Of a DNA stretch of 64,000 nucleotides, positions 55,186 through 64,000 are shown in pieces. This DNA is from a bacterium (GTDB taxonomy: Bacteria > Armatimonadota > JACIXR01). Numbering within the stretch: the stretch's first letter is position 1; every line of letters begins with the position of its first letter. The notes under the pieces were generated by a model that ran no database searches, was not told where the DNA came from, and saw only the letters and a list, made by a program, of their open reading frames with translations. Location: assembly GCA_014360495.1 (NCBI GenBank), contig JACIXR010000006.1, forward strand, positions 1 through 64,000. The letters run 5' to 3'. Both the position numbers and the translations under genes were made by a program.

Positions 55186-56823
55186 ATGAAAGCTCAAACG
55201 GATATCGGCGATGTAGAGAAGCTAAAGAAGCAACCGACCATATGCACCTTCTGCGGTTGCGGATGTGCCTTCTACCTTTTCCCTGAGGGTTTCCTCGTCC
55301 CAGCCCAAAATCATCCTGTATCTCGGGGAAAGCTTTGCCTTAGGGGTTGGAGCTATGCCGACCTCCTCTTCACACCCAATCGCCTTAAAACTCCCCTCGT
55401 GCGTAGAAACGACAAGCTTGAGGCAACATCTTGGGACGAAGCCCTACAGATTGCGAGCGAGAAATTGAAGGCGATAAAGGATAAATATGGAGGAGATGCT
55501 ATAGGGGTTTTGGGCTCGGCTCGCGCAAGCGTTGAGGATAATTTCACTCTCTACCAATTCGCAAGCAAAGTTTTGGGAACGAAAAACATTGACTCCTTCT
55601 ACCGTCTCGGCTTCTTGCGCTCGGAGAATTTCTCTTTCCCGGATTTGGAGAAAGCCGACCAGATAATCCTCCTATCCTGCGATATAGCGGAGAGGCATCC
55701 CCAAGCAGCCTCCTTTGTTATCGGAGCGCTTTCCCAAGGGGCTTTCTTATATGTTATAGATTCTCGCCTTCCCCAGATGGGAAGGCTTGCCTCAATCCAC
55801 ATTCAGCCTTCCCCTATGGAGTTGCTTAAGGAGGCGGAAAACTTCATAGATAATTTGGAAGTAAAAGGGAATGCCTATCTCCTCTATTCCTCGGAGATAA
55901 CCCTCTATGGGTGGGCTTATGAAGTGCAGAATGTGTTGAATAAGGCCGCTGCAAAGGGAATAAAGCCAATCTTTCTCTGCGATTACGCCAATCAAAGGGG
56001 AATGATTGAGGCTGGAATCCATCCCCAAGGTGGGCTCTCCTTCTACGAGATGCTAGAGGAGGCGAAAAAGGGAAATCTCAAGGCTCTCGTGATTATGGCT
56101 GATAATCCCTCCGCCCGCTTCCCTCAACTCTTCAGGGAAGCGAGGGAGAAACTTGATTTCCTTCTTGTCATTGACCCACTCCGCACGGATGCGGTCGAGA
56201 TGGCGGATGTCGCCTTTCCGGGCACCTTTTTCTTTGAAAAAGAGGGAACTACCGTTAACGCTGAGGGGAGGCGCCAAGCCCTCCATCCAACCGTCCCACC
56301 TGCTTGGGAGCAAACGGAAATAGATATTCTCCTCATTCTTTCTGAGAAGTTGGGTTCTCGTCTTCCTTTTCCTTCTGCCGAATTAATTGAAATGGAGAAG
56401 AAGGAGTGGCAACCAGAGTTCAAAGCTATTTCGCCCAATCCTACCAATCCCGATTATCCTTTCACCCTTCTTTTAGACCCCTCCTACATCTGGAGCGGGA
56501 CCGCCATGGCTAATGCGACCTTTATATTCAAGAGGGAGTCAAGTATAGTCCTATCAGATTTCCCAAATGGTTTCTTAAATATGAATTCCGAGGATGCGAA
56601 GGAAATGAGGATAAGGGATAGAATGATTGTAAATGTGGAAACACCCAAAGGCTCAATAAGCCTGCCTGTTTTGACATCTTTACGAGCAGGTAGAGGAATT
56701 CTGCTCTTTCCCCTTTATCTTTGGGAGAAAGTAGCTCGTGAGTTGGGAGGGGTTGAGCTCGACGAAGCCCTTGGGATGCCAATTTTCAAACCTCTACCAG
56801 CGAGGATAGCAAAGGAGGAATAG
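55186..56823 (+). CDS. FdhA/NuoG-like molybdopterin-family protein lacking the Cys/Sec ligand
   Basis: A 545-residue protein of the molybdopterin oxidoreductase superfamily. Cys20, 23, 27 and 51 (CTFCGCGC and KLCLRGW) bind one 4Fe-4S cluster; the middle keeps WDEALQIASEKL, VLGSARASVEDNF and LVIMADNPSARFP, and the later part AVEMADVAFPGTFFFEKEG. Two things argue against formate oxidation: the loop that carries Sec or Cys in formate dehydrogenases (as NxDxxARVUH) reads NIDSFYRLGF, with Gly142 and Phe143 at those positions, and the protein is about 130 residues shorter than FdhA. It therefore resembles the non-catalytic NuoG of complex I. First gene of the operon; the next starts 3 nt after its stop. 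Probable role: wiring electrons between the diaphorase and the hydrogenase. Confidence 0.82.
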   Translation: MKAQTDIGDVEKLKKQPTICTFCGCGCAFYLFPEGFLVPAQNHPVSRGKLCLRGWSYADLLFTPNRLKTPLVRRNDKLEATSWDEALQIASEKLKAIKDKYGGDAIGVLGSARASVEDNFTLYQFASKVLGTKNIDSFYRLGFLRSENFSFPDLEKADQIILLSCDIAERHPQAASFVIGALSQGAFLYVIDSRLPQMGRLASIHIQPSPMELLKEAENFIDNLEVKGNAYLLYSSEITLYGWAYEVQNVLNKAAAKGIKPIFLCDYANQRGMIEAGIHPQGGLSFYEMLEEAKKGNLKALVIMADNPSARFPQLFREAREKLDFLLVIDPLRTDAVEMADVAFPGTFFFEKEGTTVNAEGRRQALHPTVPPAWEQTEIDILLILSEKLGSRLPFPSAELIEMEKKEWQPEFKAISPNPTNPDYPFTLLLDPSYIWSGTAMANATFIFKRESSIVLSDFPNGFLNMNSEDAKEMRIRDRMIVNVETPKGSISLPVLTSLRAGRGILLFPLYLWEKVARELGGVELDEALGMPIFKPLPARIAKEE

Positions 56824-56826
56824 CTG

Positions 56827-57924
56827 ATGCCGATTTTGTCCTACAAAAAAATAAGTAAGGAAAATCTTCTCAAGATGTTGGAGGAAATCGCTAAGGAAGA
56901 GGAGCTCATTGCTCCCGTTGAGATGTATGGGGGTGAGGCGCTATTTCAGCCTGTCAAGGATATCAGTGATATAACCTTCAATTATGTCAATACGCTCTTT
57001 CCTCCGAAACAGTTTCTCCTTCCACGCTTTGAGAAGATATTGACTTACAAGAAAGAGGATGGAGAACTCAAAGTGGAGGAAACCATAGAGGCACCAAAGC
57101 GAACGATTTTCGGCATTCGCCCCTGCGATGTTGAGGGCATTCGTTATTCGGAATACTTCTATTCTGGGAAGATGTTTGGGCGAGAGGACCTCGCCGACCC
57201 CCATTTTATGGCGAGGAGAAATAACTTGACTCTTATAAGCGTTTCCTGTCAAAATCCTGCCCCAACCTGCTTCTGCGTATGTTGCGATGGTGGTCCTTTC
57301 TCTGAGGAGGGATTTGACCTCCAGCTCACCGACCTTGGGGAGAATTGGTTATGTGAGGTGGGCTCCGAAAAGGGGATGGTATTAGTTGAGAGATTTTCCT
57401 CTCTCTTTGAGGATGCGAAAGAGGAGGAAATCAAGAGGAGAAAGGAACTTGAGGATGAGGTTCTGGAAAGATTTGGTCCCTATCCCGCCTTCTCCGGCGC
57501 AACTTTAAGGAGGGTGACGGAGGGGAATATCCCACGCCAGGTATGGGAGAGCTTGGGTGAAAGATGTGTGGTTTGCGGTGGCTGGCAATTCCTCTGCCCC
57601 TGCTGTTTCTGCTACACCGTTGTTGACATAGGAGATGATAACGAAGGTTATAGGGCGAGGATTTGGGATTCCTGCCATTTTGAAGGTTATTCCCGGCTCG
57701 CTGGCGGTCCCAATCCCCGAAAGTCAAGGGATAGAAGGAGAGAGCGTTGTATATTCCATAAGTTTTCCTGGCAGTATGTTGAGAGGATGGGAAGGCATGG
57801 ATGCGTTGGCTGTGGAAGGTGCGTGATAACCTGTATGGGATATGTGCATTTGCCGCAAACGGTGTGGGAGATAAGGAGTGCCTTTAGGGAGGAGAGCTAT
57901 AAGAAGGAGGCTAAGGTGAAATGA
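56827..57924 (+). CDS. Sulfhydrogenase beta-like / AsrA-type Fe-S protein
   Basis: A 365-residue iron-sulfur protein similar to the beta subunit of archaeal cytoplasmic (sulf)hydrogenases and to AsrA of anaerobic sulfite reductase. It holds many cysteines: RPCDVEGIRY, CFCVCCDGGPF, CVVCGGWQFLCPCC and a terminal CVGCGRCVITCMG, enough for at least two 4Fe-4S clusters. In the family this subunit passes electrons between the flavin/NAD(P) subunit and the catalytic subunits. It is tightly placed: 3 nt after the FdhA/NuoG-like gene, and its stop overlaps the next start (ATGA), which encodes the gamma-like partner. The function is well supported by this pairing. Confidence 0.87.
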   Translation: MPILSYKKISKENLLKMLEEIAKEEELIAPVEMYGGEALFQPVKDISDITFNYVNTLFPPKQFLLPRFEKILTYKKEDGELKVEETIEAPKRTIFGIRPCDVEGIRYSEYFYSGKMFGREDLADPHFMARRNNLTLISVSCQNPAPTCFCVCCDGGPFSEEGFDLQLTDLGENWLCEVGSEKGMVLVERFSSLFEDAKEEEIKRRKELEDEVLERFGPYPAFSGATLRRVTEGNIPRQVWESLGERCVVCGGWQFLCPCCFCYTVVDIGDDNEGYRARIWDSCHFEGYSRLAGGPNPRKSRDRRRERCIFHKFSWQYVERMGRHGCVGCGRCVITCMGYVHLPQTVWEIRSAFREESYKKEAKVK

Positions 57925-58745
57925 AGCAAGAAGCATTGTTTCTACCGACGATAGTCTCCATAAAGGAAATAAGGCAGGAGATACCCCTCGTGGCAACCTT
58001 TCGCCTTCCGAAGCCCGATGGTTTCACACATAAGCCGGGTCAGTTTCTTGAGGTATCCCTCTTTGGGAAAGGGGAGGTGCCAATCTCCATTTCCTCCCCA
58101 CCTTCCTATGAGGACATTCTCTTAACGATAAGAAACTCAGGTTATGTAACATCGTTTATTCACAAACTAAAAGAAGGAGACAAGATCGGGATAAGGGGAC
58201 CCTATGGGAACTCCTTCCCTTATGAGGAATACAAGGGTTATGATGTTCTGTTTGTGGGTGGAGGGATTGGACTCGCTCCCTTGCGCTCCCTTCTTTGGGA
58301 GATGCTCTATCACAGGGATGATTTCGGGAGGATAATCCTCCTTTATGGAGCGAGAACTCCCGCTGACCTCCTTTATCCTTGGCAATATGAGGAATACGAG
58401 AGAAAAGGGGTAGAGTTGCTCTTAACGGTTGATAGGGGGGATGAGAAGTGGACGGGGAATGTTGGAGTAGTAACGACGCTTTTTGATAAGATAAAGATAG
58501 AACCGGAAAGAACTGTGGCATATGTTTGCGGACCGGGTATAATGATTAGGTTCGCCTTGAGGGACCTTGTTGAGAAGCTGGGGATTCCAGCTCACAATTG
58601 TATAGCGACTTTGGAAAGGCATATGAAATGCGGAGTGGGGAAATGCGGGCATTGCGTTATAGGTGAGAAGTATGTTTGTATAGATGGTCCAGTATTCCGC
58701 TATCCAGAGATTAAAATGATGGAAAGGTTTGATGACCCATGGTAG
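57921..58745 (+). CDS. Sulfhydrogenase gamma-like / AsrB-type FAD-NAD(P) reductase
   Basis: A 274-residue flavin reductase of the ferredoxin-NADP reductase fold. FAD part: FTHKPGQFLEVSLFGKGEVP, split as HKPGQFLEVSL and FGKGEVPISISSPP; nucleotide part: VLFVGGGIGLAPLRSLL and VAYVCGPGIMIRFAL; and a terminal 2Fe-2S site CGVGKCGHCVIG plus YVCIDGPVF. This is the NAD(P)H-interacting subunit of cytoplasmic hydrogenases and sulfite reductases in this family. With the preceding beta-like protein it should form the diaphorase module of the complex, reducing NAD(P) or taking electrons from NAD(P)H. Cofactor preference is not evident. It overlaps the protease gene by 7 nt. Confidence 0.9.
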   Translation: MKQEALFLPTIVSIKEIRQEIPLVATFRLPKPDGFTHKPGQFLEVSLFGKGEVPISISSPPSYEDILLTIRNSGYVTSFIHKLKEGDKIGIRGPYGNSFPYEEYKGYDVLFVGGGIGLAPLRSLLWEMLYHRDDFGRIILLYGARTPADLLYPWQYEEYERKGVELLLTVDRGDEKWTGNVGVVTTLFDKIKIEPERTVAYVCGPGIMIRFALRDLVEKLGIPAHNCIATLERHMKCGVGKCGHCVIGEKYVCIDGPVFRYPEIKMMERFDDPW

Positions 58746-59212
58746 CTATGGATAGCCTGGTTCAACTGAAGGATATATTAGAAAAAGAGAGGGTGGCAAT
58801 CTTGGGAGTTGGTAATCCCTTGATGGCGGATGATGGGGTGGGCAGTTGGATTGCTGAGGAGCTAAAAGGAAAGGTAAAGTGTCCTGTTTTCATAGGGGAA
58901 GATGTGCCTGAGAATTATCTTTACGATATATTGAGGGAAGAGCCCAAATGGCTTTTAGTTATAGATGCGGTGGATTTCGGTGGGGAGGCGGGTGAGGTGA
59001 AATTGGTCAATATGGAGGAATTGACGCCTCGCTTTCTCTCCTCTCATGGTATGTCGCTCAACATAATGGGGACGATTTTGAAAGAGAAGGGCTGTGAGAT
59101 GATGTTGTTGGGCATTCAGCCAAAGAATCTTTCATTAGGAGGGGAGATGAGCGAGGAAGTTAAAAGGAGCGGAGAAGAGATAATATCCCTCATTAGGAGC
59201 TGGTCAGGATGA
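58739..59212 (+). CDS. hycI: Hydrogenase maturation protease (HycI/HyaD type)
   Basis: A 157-residue nickel-dependent endopeptidase that removes the C-terminal tail of the hydrogenase large subunit after [NiFe] insertion. It has ILGVGNPLMADDGVG with the metal-binding Asp, LVIDAVDFGGEAGEV with the second, and SSHGMSL with the His. Its presence in the operon implies that the large subunit downstream is made with a cleavable tail and carries a real [NiFe] centre. A second ATG three codons on (58748) is an equally good start. It overlaps both neighbours (7 nt and ATGA). Confidence 0.93.
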   Translation: MVAMDSLVQLKDILEKERVAILGVGNPLMADDGVGSWIAEELKGKVKCPVFIGEDVPENYLYDILREEPKWLLVIDAVDFGGEAGEVKLVNMEELTPRFLSSHGMSLNIMGTILKEKGCEMMLLGIQPKNLSLGGEMSEEVKRSGEEIISLIRSWSG

Positions 59213-60693
59213 CGAATGGAGAGCTTGTCAATATTTACCTATTGTTGGTTTCCCTCTTAGCCCTTCCCTTTATTGGTGGTTTGGTGACTCTTGGCTTGAA
59301 GAGAAAGGATGCCGATGTAGTAGCGGGCTTGTTCTCCCTCGTGGTCTTCGCGCTTGCTATAATCCTTGCTCTCAAAGCGGGGACGAGGGAGTTAACCTTC
59401 GCATTCGGTTCCCTCCCGTGGCTGGGGATACAGGAGATATTCGGCTTTAGAGTTGACCCTCTCGCTGTGATTATGCTACTCGTAACCACATTCATCGGCT
59501 TCTTCGTCGTGGTCTATTCCTCATTTTATCTAAGCGAGGGGAATAGGGAACACCCAACGACGAATGGGAAAGGGAGATATTATTTCTGGCTTCTCTTCTT
59601 CCTGGGGGCGATGGTGGGCGTTTCAATCTCCCAGAATTTCTTTCAATTCTTCATCTTCTTTGAGCTCACCACGATTTGCTCCTTTGCCTTGATAGATTTC
59701 TATGAGACTCCGAGGGCTCTGCGTGCGGGCTTCACTGCCTTAATAACAACCTCCCTTGGCAGCTTGTGTTTCCTCGCTGGGCTTGCTATTCTCGCCGTCT
59801 ACGCTCACTCATTTGACTTTGAAGCTGTTCGAGACCTTTCCCCTTCCATAAAGGCTACTTTCTTCATCCTCCTTTGGATATCCGCGTTAGCCAAGGGAGC
59901 GCAGGTGCCATTCCAGATATGGCTTCCACAAGCTATGGAGGCGCCGACGCCGATTTCCGCTTATCTCCACGCTGCTTCAATGGTGAAAGTAGGCGTCTTT
60001 CTCATAGCGAGGATGGTAACAACTCCTCATGCTTTTTATCCCGAATCCTTGGGAGTTCTCGTCTCTCTCTGGGCTCTCTTCTCAATGCTCTTCGCTCTCC
60101 TTGCCTTCTTGGGAGCAGACGATATAAAGAAATTGCTTGCTTATTCCACTATTGTACATATAGGATATATCCTTTTGGGATTAAGCTTATGGTTAATGGG
60201 AGCGGACATCAAAGCCTTGCAAGGTGGTATCCTCCATATAATCAATCACTCCGTTTCCAAGGGCTTACTTTTCCTCTGTGCTGGAATAATATCGTATATA
60301 ACCGGGACGAGGAAAATCAGTGAAATCGGTGGATTGGGCACTAAACTTCCTGTTAATGCCATCGCTTTTACTATAGGAGGATTTGCAGTTGGTGGGTTCC
60401 CTCCATTTGCTTGTTTCTTCAGCAAATTCTATATGATTCTCGGGGCAATTTCGCTCCACAATTGGATAGGCATACTCGCCGCGGTCTTTATGGTATTAGA
60501 AAGCACTATTTCCTTGACATGGTATATAATGATCACACATAGGATTTTTATGGGAGATGAAAAGCCAAAACTTGGAGAAGTAAAACCAATCCCCTTGTAT
60601 ATAAACATTATCTTGGTTTTTCTGGCTTTAGCGACGATTGTTGTTCCCCAACTTGGATTAGAATTCGTTAAAGTTTTTGAGGTGATAAGATGA
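59209..60693 (+). CDS. Complex I NuoM/MrpD-like proton-pump subunit
   Basis: A 494-residue membrane protein of the antiporter-like (Nuo L/M/N, MrpA/D, HyfF) family with about 14 helices. The key charged residues are visible: Glu in FFELTTICSFALIDFYE (helix 5), Lys in ISALAKGAQVPFQIWLP (helix 7), Lys in SMVKVGVFLIAR (helix 8) and Lys in DDIKKLLAYSTIVHIGY, with GGFPPFACFFSKFYM late. These make a proton path in complex I and group 4 hydrogenases. With the next gene it gives two pump-type subunits before the catalytic large subunit. Start overlaps hycI (ATGA), stop overlaps the next gene (ATGA). Confidence 0.92.
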   Translation: MTNGELVNIYLLLVSLLALPFIGGLVTLGLKRKDADVVAGLFSLVVFALAIILALKAGTRELTFAFGSLPWLGIQEIFGFRVDPLAVIMLLVTTFIGFFVVVYSSFYLSEGNREHPTTNGKGRYYFWLLFFLGAMVGVSISQNFFQFFIFFELTTICSFALIDFYETPRALRAGFTALITTSLGSLCFLAGLAILAVYAHSFDFEAVRDLSPSIKATFFILLWISALAKGAQVPFQIWLPQAMEAPTPISAYLHAASMVKVGVFLIARMVTTPHAFYPESLGVLVSLWALFSMLFALLAFLGADDIKKLLAYSTIVHIGYILLGLSLWLMGADIKALQGGILHIINHSVSKGLLFLCAGIISYITGTRKISEIGGLGTKLPVNAIAFTIGGFAVGGFPPFACFFSKFYMILGAISLHNWIGILAAVFMVLESTISLTWYIMITHRIFMGDEKPKLGEVKPIPLYINIILVFLALATIVVPQLGLEFVKVFEVIR

Positions 60694-62657
60694 ACGGAAT
60701 GGAACTTTTGCTTCAGGGCTTTGGCATATTAGTTTTGGGAGCAATCATAACCGCCCTTTTGGGCAAGTGGAATCGGCTAAATGGTTGGATGGCTTTCATC
60801 CTGGGTTCACTTGCCAGCGTCCTCATTTTAATTGGGGCGGTGCAAACCCTTATTAGTGGCGATTTGCCATCCAAGGGCAGTGGAATATTCTCTATTTTCT
60901 TCCTTGATAAATTGAGCTCTTTCTTCCTGCTCGTAATCTCGGGGATTTCCATTGTATCGCTTCTCTATTCCATTAGATACATTGAACATTATCGTAAAAG
61001 CACGAGCCTTTACTATCCGTTTCTACTCTTATTTATTTTGGGGATGGGCGGGGTTGTGAGTGTTAGAAATATGTTTGCTTTCCTCCTATTTTGGGAATTT
61101 ATGACCTTGACCTCTTATTTTCTCGTTATTTACGAAAGCGAAAAACCCGAGAATCTATTGGCTGGTTTTCGTTATTTCTTCTGGTCATTTCTTTCTGCTG
61201 GTTGTATTGAGCTTGCCGTTGCCCTTCTCTATATTCAAACAAACTCCTTTGATATGAATATAATGAAGGGCGCTATGCCGACTATTCAGGAAAAACATCC
61301 ATTTATGTTTCATTCACTACTTGCCTTGTTCCTTGTTGGCTTTGGCATAAAAGCGGGTATTTTCCCCTTCGGGAACTTCTGGCTTCCCGATGCTCACCCC
61401 GCTGCCCCTTCCCCCGTATCCGCATTGCTTTCCGGTGTGATGATAAAAACCGGTGTTTACGGGATACTGAGGACCTTTCTCTGGATGTTACCCCTTTCCC
61501 CTGCTTCAAATATATGGGGAAGTATCATAGCCGCTATGGGAGCTATATCATTAGTGATGGGCACTCTTTCCGCCTTGGAACAAACAGACAGCAAGAGACT
61601 CCTTGCCTTTCACTCTATTGGGCAGATGGGTTATATTTTCTTAGGGGTAGGGGCGGGGTTGGCTCTACTCTCTCTTAGCTCTCCCTTTGGTTATTTCGCT
61701 CTTTTCGGGGGATTGCTTCACCTTTTCAACCACTCAATCTTTAAATCTCTCCTTTTCCTCTCCGCAGGCTCAATTCTCTATAAAAAGGGAACAAGGGAAC
61801 TAAGCGAATTAGGCGGGCTTGCTTCCTCTATGCCTCTTACATTCTTTGCCGCCCTAACGGCGTCTTTCGCAATAGGTGGAATCCCACCTTTAAATGGTTT
61901 TGTTAGCAAGTGGTTGTTGGTTTTTTCTACATCAATACCTGCAAGGTTGCATTATGAGTTTCCTATTTGGGCTATAGCAAGCATCTTTGCCAGTGGATTG
62001 ACAATAGCTTCTATGCTGAAATATGTTGGCTCCGCTTTTATGGGGTTGAAGAAAGAAGAAGATAGCTACAACGATGTGCCATTAACGATGCAAATATCTC
62101 AGATACTGCTGGCAGCCGCTTGCCTAATCACCGGCATTGTAGCTGTATTGCCATTAGGTATTATCCACAACTCGCTGAAGGAAAGCATTATGAATCTTCC
62201 GCCTTATGAACAGCTAATCGGGACAGGGATTGAAATCGCTCCGAAACTTAAAGGGCTTTCTATAGCTTTATGGAATCCCATGTTGATATTGCTCTCATTG
62301 ATTATTTTAAGTGCCATATTTTATGAATTCATCAGAGGTGCCAAAAAGGAAACAGTCATCTGGTTGGGTGGGGTATTGCCTGATAGAAGGAACTTAGTAT
62401 ATGACCCCCATTCTTATTTCCTCACCTTACGCAGGGGGATATGGTCAAATATCCCCAGCATTCCCTTACCCAGGATAGAGAGGTTGAGTCGCTTATCGGT
62501 GGCTCCTGGGGAGGATGTTTATGAGCCGCTGATTCGTTTAGGGCATCGCTTCATTGAGAGATTGCGAAAAGTCCATTCCGGGCTTCTGCAAACTTATATC
62601 CTCTGGCAAATGCTTGGCTTGGCGATTGCCCTTTTATTGATATATGCTTTTAAATAA
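60690..62657 (+). CDS. HyfB/HycC/NuoL-like proton-pump subunit
   Basis: A 655-residue membrane protein, the longer antiporter-like subunit. It has Glu in FLLFWEFMTLTSYFLVIYE, Lys in GFGIKAGIFPFGNFWLPDAH and MIKTGVYGILRTF, SKRLLAFHSIGQMGYIFLG, and IGGIPPLNGFVSKWLL. The C-terminal ~170 residues extend past the core as in HyfB/HycC (helix to about 550, soluble stretch with RLSRLSVAPGEDVYEPL, final helix ILWQMLGLAIALLLIY). This length and tail favour HyfB/HycC over NuoL. It overlaps the previous gene (ATGA), and 14 nt separate it from the large subunit. Confidence 0.92.
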   Translation: MNGMELLLQGFGILVLGAIITALLGKWNRLNGWMAFILGSLASVLILIGAVQTLISGDLPSKGSGIFSIFFLDKLSSFFLLVISGISIVSLLYSIRYIEHYRKSTSLYYPFLLLFILGMGGVVSVRNMFAFLLFWEFMTLTSYFLVIYESEKPENLLAGFRYFFWSFLSAGCIELAVALLYIQTNSFDMNIMKGAMPTIQEKHPFMFHSLLALFLVGFGIKAGIFPFGNFWLPDAHPAAPSPVSALLSGVMIKTGVYGILRTFLWMLPLSPASNIWGSIIAAMGAISLVMGTLSALEQTDSKRLLAFHSIGQMGYIFLGVGAGLALLSLSSPFGYFALFGGLLHLFNHSIFKSLLFLSAGSILYKKGTRELSELGGLASSMPLTFFAALTASFAIGGIPPLNGFVSKWLLVFSTSIPARLHYEFPIWAIASIFASGLTIASMLKYVGSAFMGLKKEEDSYNDVPLTMQISQILLAAACLITGIVAVLPLGIIHNSLKESIMNLPPYEQLIGTGIEIAPKLKGLSIALWNPMLILLSLIILSAIFYEFIRGAKKETVIWLGGVLPDRRNLVYDPHSYFLTLRRGIWSNIPSIPLPRIERLSRLSVAPGEDVYEPLIRLGHRFIERLRKVHSGLLQTYILWQMLGLAIALLLIYAFK

Positions 62658-62671
62658 AAAGAGGTGTTGAT

Positions 62672-64000
62672 ATGGCTATCAGTGTTGAGCAACAGATTTT
62701 AGAGAGATTCAAAGAAAAGGCAACGAATGTAAAAAGCTTGCCTAACCGCCTCTTCGTTGATTTACCAAGAGAATATGTAAGGGAGGCGGTTAATATAATC
62801 TTCAATGAGTTAGGGGCAAGATATGAGATTAGCGTCGGGACGGATGCCCGTCCCATACACGGAAACTTTGAAATTCTCCACTTCTTCGCTTTTGATAAGG
62901 ATAATTTCCGTGTTGCCCTCCGATTCAAGGTGCCTCCCGATGACCCCAAGATAGATTCAATAACCCCCATAATTCCGGGTGCAAATTGGGCGGAAAGGGA
63001 GTTTAGGGACTTCATCGGTGTGGAGCCCGTGGGGCATCCCGACCCACGAAGACTGGTTCTGCCGGACGATTGGCCGGAAGGAGTCCATCCATTGCGGAAG
63101 GAGGTCCCCTATAATTATCAGCCTCCCGCAACAACTGGCTGTGAGTTCAAGTTCAAGGAGCCACCACCTGGTGCAACGGCTCTTCCCATCGGACCATTCT
63201 TCCCCGTTTTAGAGGAGCCTATCCAATTTAGGCTGTTCATTGAGGGAGAGAATGTTGTGGGAGCTGACCATAGGGGATTTTATGTGCATAGAGGAATAGA
63301 GAAGCTTGGAGAGAGTCAGCTTACCTATAACCAGATACCATTCCTCGCCGAACGAATCTGTGGCATCTGCGGTTTCACTCACTCCGTATGTTACTGCCAA
63401 ACTGTTGAGGGAGCGGCGGGTATAGAGATACCCTTACCAGCTAAGTATGTGCGAAGCTATTGTTTGGAGATGGAGAGGGTGCATAGCCACCTTCTCTGGC
63501 TCGGGCTCGCCTGCCATATTTTGGGCTTTGATACATTGTTTATGCAGTTCTGGAGGATAAGGGAGCCAATAATGTGGATGGCGGAGAGGATAACCGGGAA
63601 TAGAAAGAATTACGGTATGAATCTCGTGGGAGGCACAAGAAGGAACATACCGGAGGAAATAAGAGAAGAGCTTTTGAGGGTAATTGACAAAACTGAAGAA
63701 GAGACTTTGGAGCTCTCAAAGACCCTCCTGAACGATAGCGCCTTCATAGTACGGACGAAAGAGGTGGGAATTCTAACACCCGAGGAGGTAAGGCTAACGG
63801 GAGCGATTGGACCTACAGCTCGTGCCTCAGGGGTTGATATAGATGTGAGGAGAGATTTCCCCTACGCGGCTTATCCCTATTTGAAATTTGATGTGATAGT
63901 GCTCAATGGATGTGATGTCCTCTCAAGGGCATTGGTACGAGTTTATGAGACGATTGAGTCCTTGAAGATGATGCGGCAGATATTGAAGGAGCTTCCCGAC
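62672..64000 (+). CDS. Group 4 [NiFe]-hydrogenase large subunit, NuoC-HycE fusion (5' part)
   Basis: 443 codons are present and the frame is open to the window edge, so the C-terminus is missing. Residues 1-170 are a NuoC-like domain (IPGANWAEREFRDFIG, GHPDPRRLVLPDDWPEG, HPLRKEVPYNY) fused to a HycE/NuoD-like domain, as in formate hydrogenlyase HycE. The first [NiFe] ligand motif is intact: RICGICGFTHSVCYC, with Cys230, Cys233 and His237, so this is a true hydrogenase and not complex I NuoD, which lacks these cysteines. RVHSHLLWLGLACHILGFDT matches the family. Start ATG 62672 follows GAGGTG. Subunits expected after the edge are the C-terminal CxxC motif, NuoH-, NuoB- and NuoI-like genes. Membrane-associated, cytoplasmic face. 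Confidence 0.95.
   Translation, partial: MAISVEQQILERFKEKATNVKSLPNRLFVDLPREYVREAVNIIFNELGARYEISVGTDARPIHGNFEILHFFAFDKDNFRVALRFKVPPDDPKIDSITPIIPGANWAEREFRDFIGVEPVGHPDPRRLVLPDDWPEGVHPLRKEVPYNYQPPATTGCEFKFKEPPPGATALPIGPFFPVLEEPIQFRLFIEGENVVGADHRGFYVHRGIEKLGESQLTYNQIPFLAERICGICGFTHSVCYCQTVEGAAGIEIPLPAKYVRSYCLEMERVHSHLLWLGLACHILGFDTLFMQFWRIREPIMWMAERITGNRKNYGMNLVGGTRRNIPEEIREELLRVIDKTEEETLELSKTLLNDSAFIVRTKEVGILTPEEVRLTGAIGPTARASGVDIDVRRDFPYAAYPYLKFDVIVLNGCDVLSRALVRVYETIESLKMMRQILKELPD

Follow-up and report, generated by a model that had tools for sequence, protein, structure and literature searches.

The analysed stretch of an Armatimonadota genome carries the start of an operon whose product is probably a membrane-bound, ion-pumping NAD(P)H:H+ oxidoreductase, that is, a hydrogenase taking its electrons from a pyridine nucleotide. 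The operon combines a group 4 [NiFe] hydrogenase, NAD(P)-type, HydB/HydG-like beta and gamma subunits and a formate dehydrogenase homologue (FdhA-like protein). New here are the clade-wide loss of the active site of this homologue with retention of its iron-sulfur cluster, the missing pathway for the cofactor, and the relationship of beta to the corresponding subunits of formate dehydrogenases.

Organization and distribution of the operon

The window, which is the whole analysed stretch of 64,000 nucleotides, comes from a genome of 2.55 Mb that is 97% complete. Reading of the open reading frames gives seven operon genes at 55186-64000, all on the forward strand:

55186..56823 (+), FdhA-like/NuoG-like subunit, 545 aa; Pfam Molybdop_Fe4S4 and Molybdopterin, alignment to FdhF and NuoG
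56827..57924 (+), beta subunit (HydB/AsrA-like Fe-S protein), 365 aa; NCBIfam HydB/ShyB, below cut-off
57921..58745 (+), gamma subunit (HydG/AsrB/PyrK-like diaphorase with FAD, NAD(P) and [2Fe-2S] parts), 274 aa; Pfam NAD_binding_1, DHODB_Fe-S_bind and FAD_binding_6
58739..59212 (+), HycI-type hydrogenase maturation protease, 157 aa; TIGR00072, above cut-off
59209..60693 (+), HyfD-like antiporter-like pump subunit, 494 aa; NF005097, above cut-off
60690..62657 (+), HyfB-like antiporter-like pump subunit, 655 aa; best model hydrogenase 4 subunit B
62672..64000 (+), HycE-type large subunit (NuoC-NuoD fusion), truncated by the window end; 557 aa when complete on the contig

Neighbouring genes either overlap at their ATG and stop codons or are separated by gaps of 3 to 14 bases, and the upstream neighbour is a divergent Nudix-like gene, so that the operon starts with the FdhA-like gene. 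Pfam and NCBIfam agree on the gene families. The seven-gene operon of the first-pass annotation is thus real, with co-directional, overlapping or nearly abutting genes of the families described there. Beyond base 64000 the operon runs on along the flanking contig, which completes the gene set of a Hyf-like group 4 [NiFe] hydrogenase: HycE is followed by HycD (NuoH-like), HycF (NuoI-like, with two ferredoxin motifs), HyfE, HyfF, HycG (NuoB-like) and, at the downstream end, the Hyp maturation genes HypA, HypF and HypD. The flank, checked for NuoB-, NuoH- and NuoI-like genes, therefore holds all of them as HycG, HycD and HycF, in addition to HyfE. The two pump subunits first described (HyfD-like and HyfB-like) are indeed the ones within the window, but the full count is three, since HyfF, also antiporter-like, lies past its edge. 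We found no gene for a HycB-like linker.

The gene order is identical in two other genomes of the genus. We surveyed 251 Armatimonadota genomes by profile search and fetched the loci with their flanks; the operon is present at 20 of 20 further loci, a non-random sample picked by similarity to the FdhA-like profile, and the active-site Cys is missing from all of them. HycE was seen in 17 of these loci and at least one antiporter-like gene in the other three. Contigs of relatives in the phylum are titled Armatimonadetes, Hebobacteria and Zipacnadia, and further members of the clade occur on a KSB1 contig and in unclassified bacteria. The recurrence of both the operon and the residue loss in the two genus genomes and at all 20 further Armatimonadota loci excludes chance, frameshift or assembly error. 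One apparent operon copy without an FdhA-like gene (L208) was rejected, as a longer flank (L219) revealed a diverged copy of the gene.

The hydrogenase and its membrane arm

The catalytic subunit is of the NuoC-HycE type, as the first-pass annotation had proposed. The complete HycE of 557 aa has the same residue as E. coli HycE at 41% of 553 aligned positions, and its best match among solved structures is subunit 5 of the E. coli formate hydrogenlyase (FHL; 7z0s_E, E 2.6e-136, near full length). Both CxxC pairs of nickel ligands are intact (RICGIC and DPCVSC), as they are in the relatives aligned over their full length, and both are missing from the E. coli NuoCD and NuoD controls. The group 4 partner set is complete on the contig, with HycG, HycF, HycD, HyfB, HyfD and HyfF. 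HycG keeps four cluster cysteines, and HycF keeps eight together with three more that are conserved. The key Glu and Lys residues of pump subunits are in place in HyfB, HyfD and HyfF, where the positions of NuoM Glu144, Lys234, Lys265 and Glu407 are occupied by E, K, K or E, and K, respectively. Sequence comparison, made with E. coli references only, assigns the hydrogenase to group 4 [NiFe], HycE/HyfG type. Searches of the three genus genomes revealed neither an [FeFe] hydrogenase nor a further NiFe hydrogenase, which leaves the operon enzyme as the only hydrogenase of the genus.

Loss of the active site in the FdhA-like subunit

Alignment with E. coli FdhF and NuoG places G142, F143, a cysteine and R53 of the window protein at the positions of FdhF Sec140, His141, Arg333 and Lys44. 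The loss of the Sec/Cys (Gly142) and of the following His (Phe143) had been noticed at first pass, and it extends across the clade. None of 30 clade members has a catalytic Cys/Sec; in the same alignment all 20 control FdhA/FdhF proteins keep U/C140, H141, R333 and K44. A wider alignment of 33 rows represents 32 distinct copies (L105 and L150 being one locus), and Cys/Sec and His are missing in all 32. The hydrogenase arm is at least partly visible beside 30 of these copies, while the contigs of the other two (L078 and L107) end first. The position equivalent to Sec140 is occupied by eleven residues across the clade (G, H, D, L, E, V, A, Y, Q, R and F), and no cysteine from a neighbouring loop is consistently found near the active site in the 32 distinct copies. 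By contrast with this freely varying position, the [4Fe-4S] cysteines (C20, C23, C27 and C51 in the window protein) are complete in 31 of the 32, the exception being L039, where one is lost. The protein begins directly at the Mo-Fe4S4 domain and has no N-terminal Fe-S domains. Its AlphaFold model (pLDDT 90) matches FdhF with a TM score of 0.79 and NuoG with 0.75 in Foldseek.

We searched the three genus genomes, each 97% complete, for synthesis of the molybdenum cofactor. Profiles of MoaC, the MoaA C-terminal domain and MoeA gave no hits in any of them, and the same searches were positive in 11 of 14 control genomes. The FdhA-like protein is the sole PF00384 (molybdopterin-family) protein in each of the three. 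Together, these absences and the solitary FdhA-like protein rule out a molybdenum formate dehydrogenase in the genus, and reading the FdhA-like protein of the genus as a Mo/W pterin enzyme is not plausible. Among 27 operon-bearing genomes, MoaC was also not found in five members of two other families, whose completeness is 97-99% (G072, G134, G104, G124 and G007); the operon is thus retained in other lineages without MoaC.

These observations bear on whether the operon encodes a formate hydrogenlyase, with the FdhA-like protein as a working Mo/W formate dehydrogenase. Fdh-alpha is its best-scoring NCBIfam model, although at 226 bits it stays far below the cut-off of 666, and FdhF is its best fold match. 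Such an enzyme is nevertheless scarcely conceivable here: in the window protein other residues stand in place of Cys/Sec, His and the substrate Arg, Moco biosynthesis is absent from the genus, and no second FdhA with Cys/Sec exists further along the operon or anywhere else in the genus. With active-site residues and cofactor synthesis both missing, we reject formate hydrogenlyase for the genus, in agreement with the earlier view of this DNA. The NuoG-like role given to the FdhA-like protein at first pass is supported by the same lines of evidence, and a kept cluster next to a freely varying active site fits an electron relay. It is possible, if doubtful, that the subunit is instead a scaffold or relic and that electrons pass from beta to HycF directly, the rest of the scheme being unchanged. 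The shrinkage of the protein to 545 aa, the missing cluster cysteine of L039 and the off-pathway position of NuoG cluster N7 in complex I (PMC9474812) would all suit a scaffold, but 31 of the 32 distinct copies retain all four cluster cysteines even though the active-site position varies freely.

The NAD(P)-type input module and proposed electron transfer

Pfam, NCBIfam and structure matches bear out that NAD(P)-type beta and gamma subunits accompany a group 4 hydrogenase that has antiporter-like pump genes. The beta subunit matches the beta chain of Pyrococcus furiosus sulfhydrogenase 1 (9nez_B, E 3.5e-47), and gamma matches chain 9nez_C of the same NADPH sulfhydrogenase (E 1.5e-51). Gamma has one FAD domain and one [2Fe-2S] domain, whose four cysteines are present in 36 of 36 rows. 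In beta, the clade-specific Cys152 is found in 28 of 28 group-4-linked rows versus 0 of 8 formate-dehydrogenase-linked rows, and the genus has Trp at Cys253, losing one normally conserved cluster cysteine. An N-module of the NuoEF type is not what we find: the window genome has no true NuoF, and the FdhA-like protein lacks the N-terminal Fe-S domains. The sole PF01512 match in this genome was rejected as NuoF, being a PduS-like protein beside microcompartment genes.

The sulfhydrogenase matches of beta and gamma, the FAD, NAD(P) and [2Fe-2S] parts of gamma, the absence of any other hydrogenase in the genus and of a true NuoF in the window genome lead us to conclude that the operon enzyme is in all likelihood the hydrogenase through which the cell uses NAD(P)H, with the reaction coupled to ion movement. 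Hydride would pass from NAD(P)H to the FAD of gamma, and electrons would then travel from the gamma [2Fe-2S] cluster through the beta Fe-S clusters, the [4Fe-4S] cluster of the FdhA-like protein, HycF and HycG to the [NiFe] site of HycE, where H2 would be formed. Ion translocation by HycD, HyfB, HyfD, HyfE and HyfF would be coupled to this reaction. The transfer of electrons from NAD(P)H to protons is uphill at standard conditions (about -320 versus -414 mV), so that outward pumping during H2 evolution requires very low H2 or a second donor. By the established redox potentials, only low H2 brings the forward reaction close to equilibrium, so that the coupling may have either direction and either sign. 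Reversible operation is expected: a little energy could be conserved when H2 is low, and when H2 is high the enzyme would consume membrane potential or use H2 to reduce NAD(P)+. Its physiological use would most likely be the disposal of fermentation NAD(P)H as H2.

Counting against this explanation are the C253W change in the beta subunit of the genus, the loss of a cluster cysteine in L039, the lack of a HycB-like linker and a mismatch between the gamma and beta trees.

The energetic cost of NAD(P)H as donor also bears on a ferredoxin-linked or three-way enzyme, which would be thermodynamically easier. Ferredoxin would then be the main donor, as in Mbh, or act alongside NAD(P)H by confurcation, with beta and gamma serving for exchange between ferredoxin and NAD(P). 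Either NAD(P)+ or ferredoxin serves the thermococcal NAD(P)-formate dehydrogenases (PMC10025317), Dehalococcoides is predicted to have group 4 hydrogenases equipped with a bifurcating BfuABC module (PMC9304861), and an Mbh-like function is assumed for a Saganbacteria case in the passages of PMC6349859 that concern it. We regard such an enzyme as unlikely: the operon lacks the NuoE/NuoF-type BfuBC core, the sole NuoF homologue of the window genome is PduS-like, and Pfam and NCBIfam searches reveal no second flavin domain in gamma.

Origin of the operon

In the alpha tree the group-4-linked proteins all fall into a single clade (96/99) that is separate from NuoG, although a joint clade of FdhA-like proteins and NuoG is not rejected by the AU test (p-AU 0.337). 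The join of this clade with the Cys/Sec formate dehydrogenases, including those linked to beta and gamma, is weak (40/74). The beta tree is more decisive: group-4-linked and nearly all formate-dehydrogenase-linked beta subunits are sisters (100/99), the exception being the formate-dehydrogenase-linked beta of L098, which is placed elsewhere. This pair stands apart from most other beta subunits, including those beside group 3b-type large subunits. The first-pass proposal that the N-module was assembled from HydBG is therefore not upheld, and the module looks instead like a captured NAD(P)-type formate dehydrogenase. FdhA genes that stand beside beta and gamma without group 4 genes keep their Cys (L044 and L098), and in deltaproteobacterial ones of this arrangement a UGA codon lies in frame and is read as Sec. 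The gamma tree gives a mixed picture, is not congruent with the beta tree and does not serve as support for capture of the module as one block; gamma appears to have been exchanged at times.

The most likely origin, and the simplest account of these sequences, is capture of an NAD(P)-type formate dehydrogenase by a group 4 hydrogenase. The alpha subunit of the dehydrogenase would subsequently have lost its active site, either in parallel with the origin of NuoG in complex I or in relation to it. The tree favours an inactivation independent of that of NuoG without proving it (AU p = 0.34). The evidence is evenly poised on the fuller scenario of a second, independent complex-I-like NAD(P)H input module, in which a whole formate dehydrogenase would have been captured, the Mo site of alpha lost early in favour of a NuoG-like relay, and molybdopterin synthesis lost later in several lineages.

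Comparison with known systems and implications

The operon shares with E. coli Hyc/Hyf (group 4a) the HycE-type NuoCD fusion, HycD, HycF, HycG, HyfB/D/E/F, HycI and an FdhF homologue. Unlike Hyc/Hyf, it lacks HycB/HyfA, its FdhA-like protein has no Sec, His or Mo cofactor, and beta and gamma are added. Complex I likewise has an inactive FdhA homologue, NuoG, which retains its [4Fe-4S] cluster and sits between a flavin module of the NAD(P)H type on one side and the pumping arm on the other. The window enzyme ends at [NiFe] rather than quinone, however, takes its input through FAD-containing gamma and beta rather than NuoEF, and has an FdhA-like protein without the N-terminal ferredoxin domains of NuoG. 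The NAD(P)-linked formate dehydrogenases, namely the thermococcal Nfd (compared from the literature) and the deltaproteobacterial Sec type (compared from the sequences here), have the same set of FdhA, beta and gamma and include the nearest relatives of beta, but they possess an active Cys/Sec, are soluble and have no adjacent group 4 genes. Soluble hydrogenase (sulfhydrogenase) I of P. furiosus, of group 3b, has homologous beta and gamma (9nez), but with cytoplasmic group 3 catalytic subunits and neither a membrane arm nor an FdhA homologue. The predicted Mbh-Bfu of Dehalococcoides also joins a group 4 hydrogenase to an NADH-type input module, which has a NuoEF-like bifurcating core instead of HydB/HydG-like subunits (PMC9304861).

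The only published precedent found for the enzyme type, in a literature that mostly left out subscription journals, is from Saganbacteria RX5A (Matheus Carnevali et al. 2019, PMC6349859). The passages of that paper on the hydrogenase describe the same gene combination, call it enigmatic with its donor unknown, and find the nearest sequences in Zixibacteria and Omnitrophica. They state that phylogeny does not identify the oxidoreductase as a formate dehydrogenase and suggest an Mbh-like role. Compared by description only, RX5A differs from the window operon in a gene named cooF, and those passages report no active-site loss. Group 4b/4g hydrogenases, Asr sulfite reductase and incomplete Nuo are reported from Hebobacteria and Zipacnadia (PMC10290634). 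Both classes have copies of the operon (L043 and L105), and copies of this type may explain the Asr and incomplete Nuo of that report. More generally, genes annotated in Armatimonadota as 'anaerobic sulfite reductase' or as 'partial complex I' may belong together in a single hydrogenase.

It is an old puzzle why complex I contains NuoG, which is homologous to formate dehydrogenase but has no metal site. The structure paper on E. coli FHL raised an FHL-type ancestor, found the docking to be different and suggested independent events (PMC9474812). The FdhA-like family provides a present-day example of a formate dehydrogenase that has apparently become an electron relay for a hydrogenase, and its many variants, together with near relatives that have the active site, open this transition to dissection. 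For the Saganbacteria-type enzyme, the operon offers a testable donor, NAD(P)H.

In the genus formed by the window genome and the two other genomes with the same operon, tryptophan replaces a cluster cysteine at residue 253 of the HydB/AsrA-like beta subunit (window 56827-57924). The cysteine at this position is retained in 33 of the 36 beta subunits compared in a cysteine audit, which revealed no genus-wide substitute for the lost Cys253. A relative of the operon in Armatimonadetes SKYB36 (L039:1-19001) has one detected antiporter-like gene, as against three, and its FdhA-like protein is missing one cluster cysteine.

FdhA-like proteins of 860-946 aa from Bacillota, Chloroflexi, Dehalococcoidia and Actinobacteria (loci L045, L046, L048, L057, L067, L069 and L114) form a separate clade. 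Alignment shows that the catalytic His is replaced in this clade and Arg333 (FdhF numbering) is changed to Gln; the catalytic Cys is also replaced in six of the seven members. A complex I-type operon in a Nitrospiraceae contig (L052:9359-18134) carries a tandem pair of NuoG-like genes (819 and 859 aa), and the 820 aa type is present on other Nitrospirota contigs as well.

Searches with PF00384 and PF01512 found neither NuoG nor a true NuoF in the window genome, and its complex I therefore lacks the standard NADH module. NuoA-, B-, C- and D-like genes stand isolated on another contig (L006:9322-11745, G000:C3). A second AsrA/HydB-like gene, with no hydrogenase nearby, forms a pair with the gene for an Fe-S protein of 309 aa (L213:7037-8994, G000:C2), and both remaining genomes of the genus have this pair too. 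A bacterial microcompartment locus (L179:4465-11491, G000:C9) encoding an aldolase, shell proteins, an aldehyde dehydrogenase and a PduS-like protein points to deoxysugar fermentation.

Copies of the operon occur in Hebobacteria and Zipacnadia (loci L043 and L105). 'Anaerobic sulfite reductase' and 'partial Nuo' have been annotated in these classes (PMC10290634), labels that may refer to the operon's beta/gamma genes and its hydrogenase genes.
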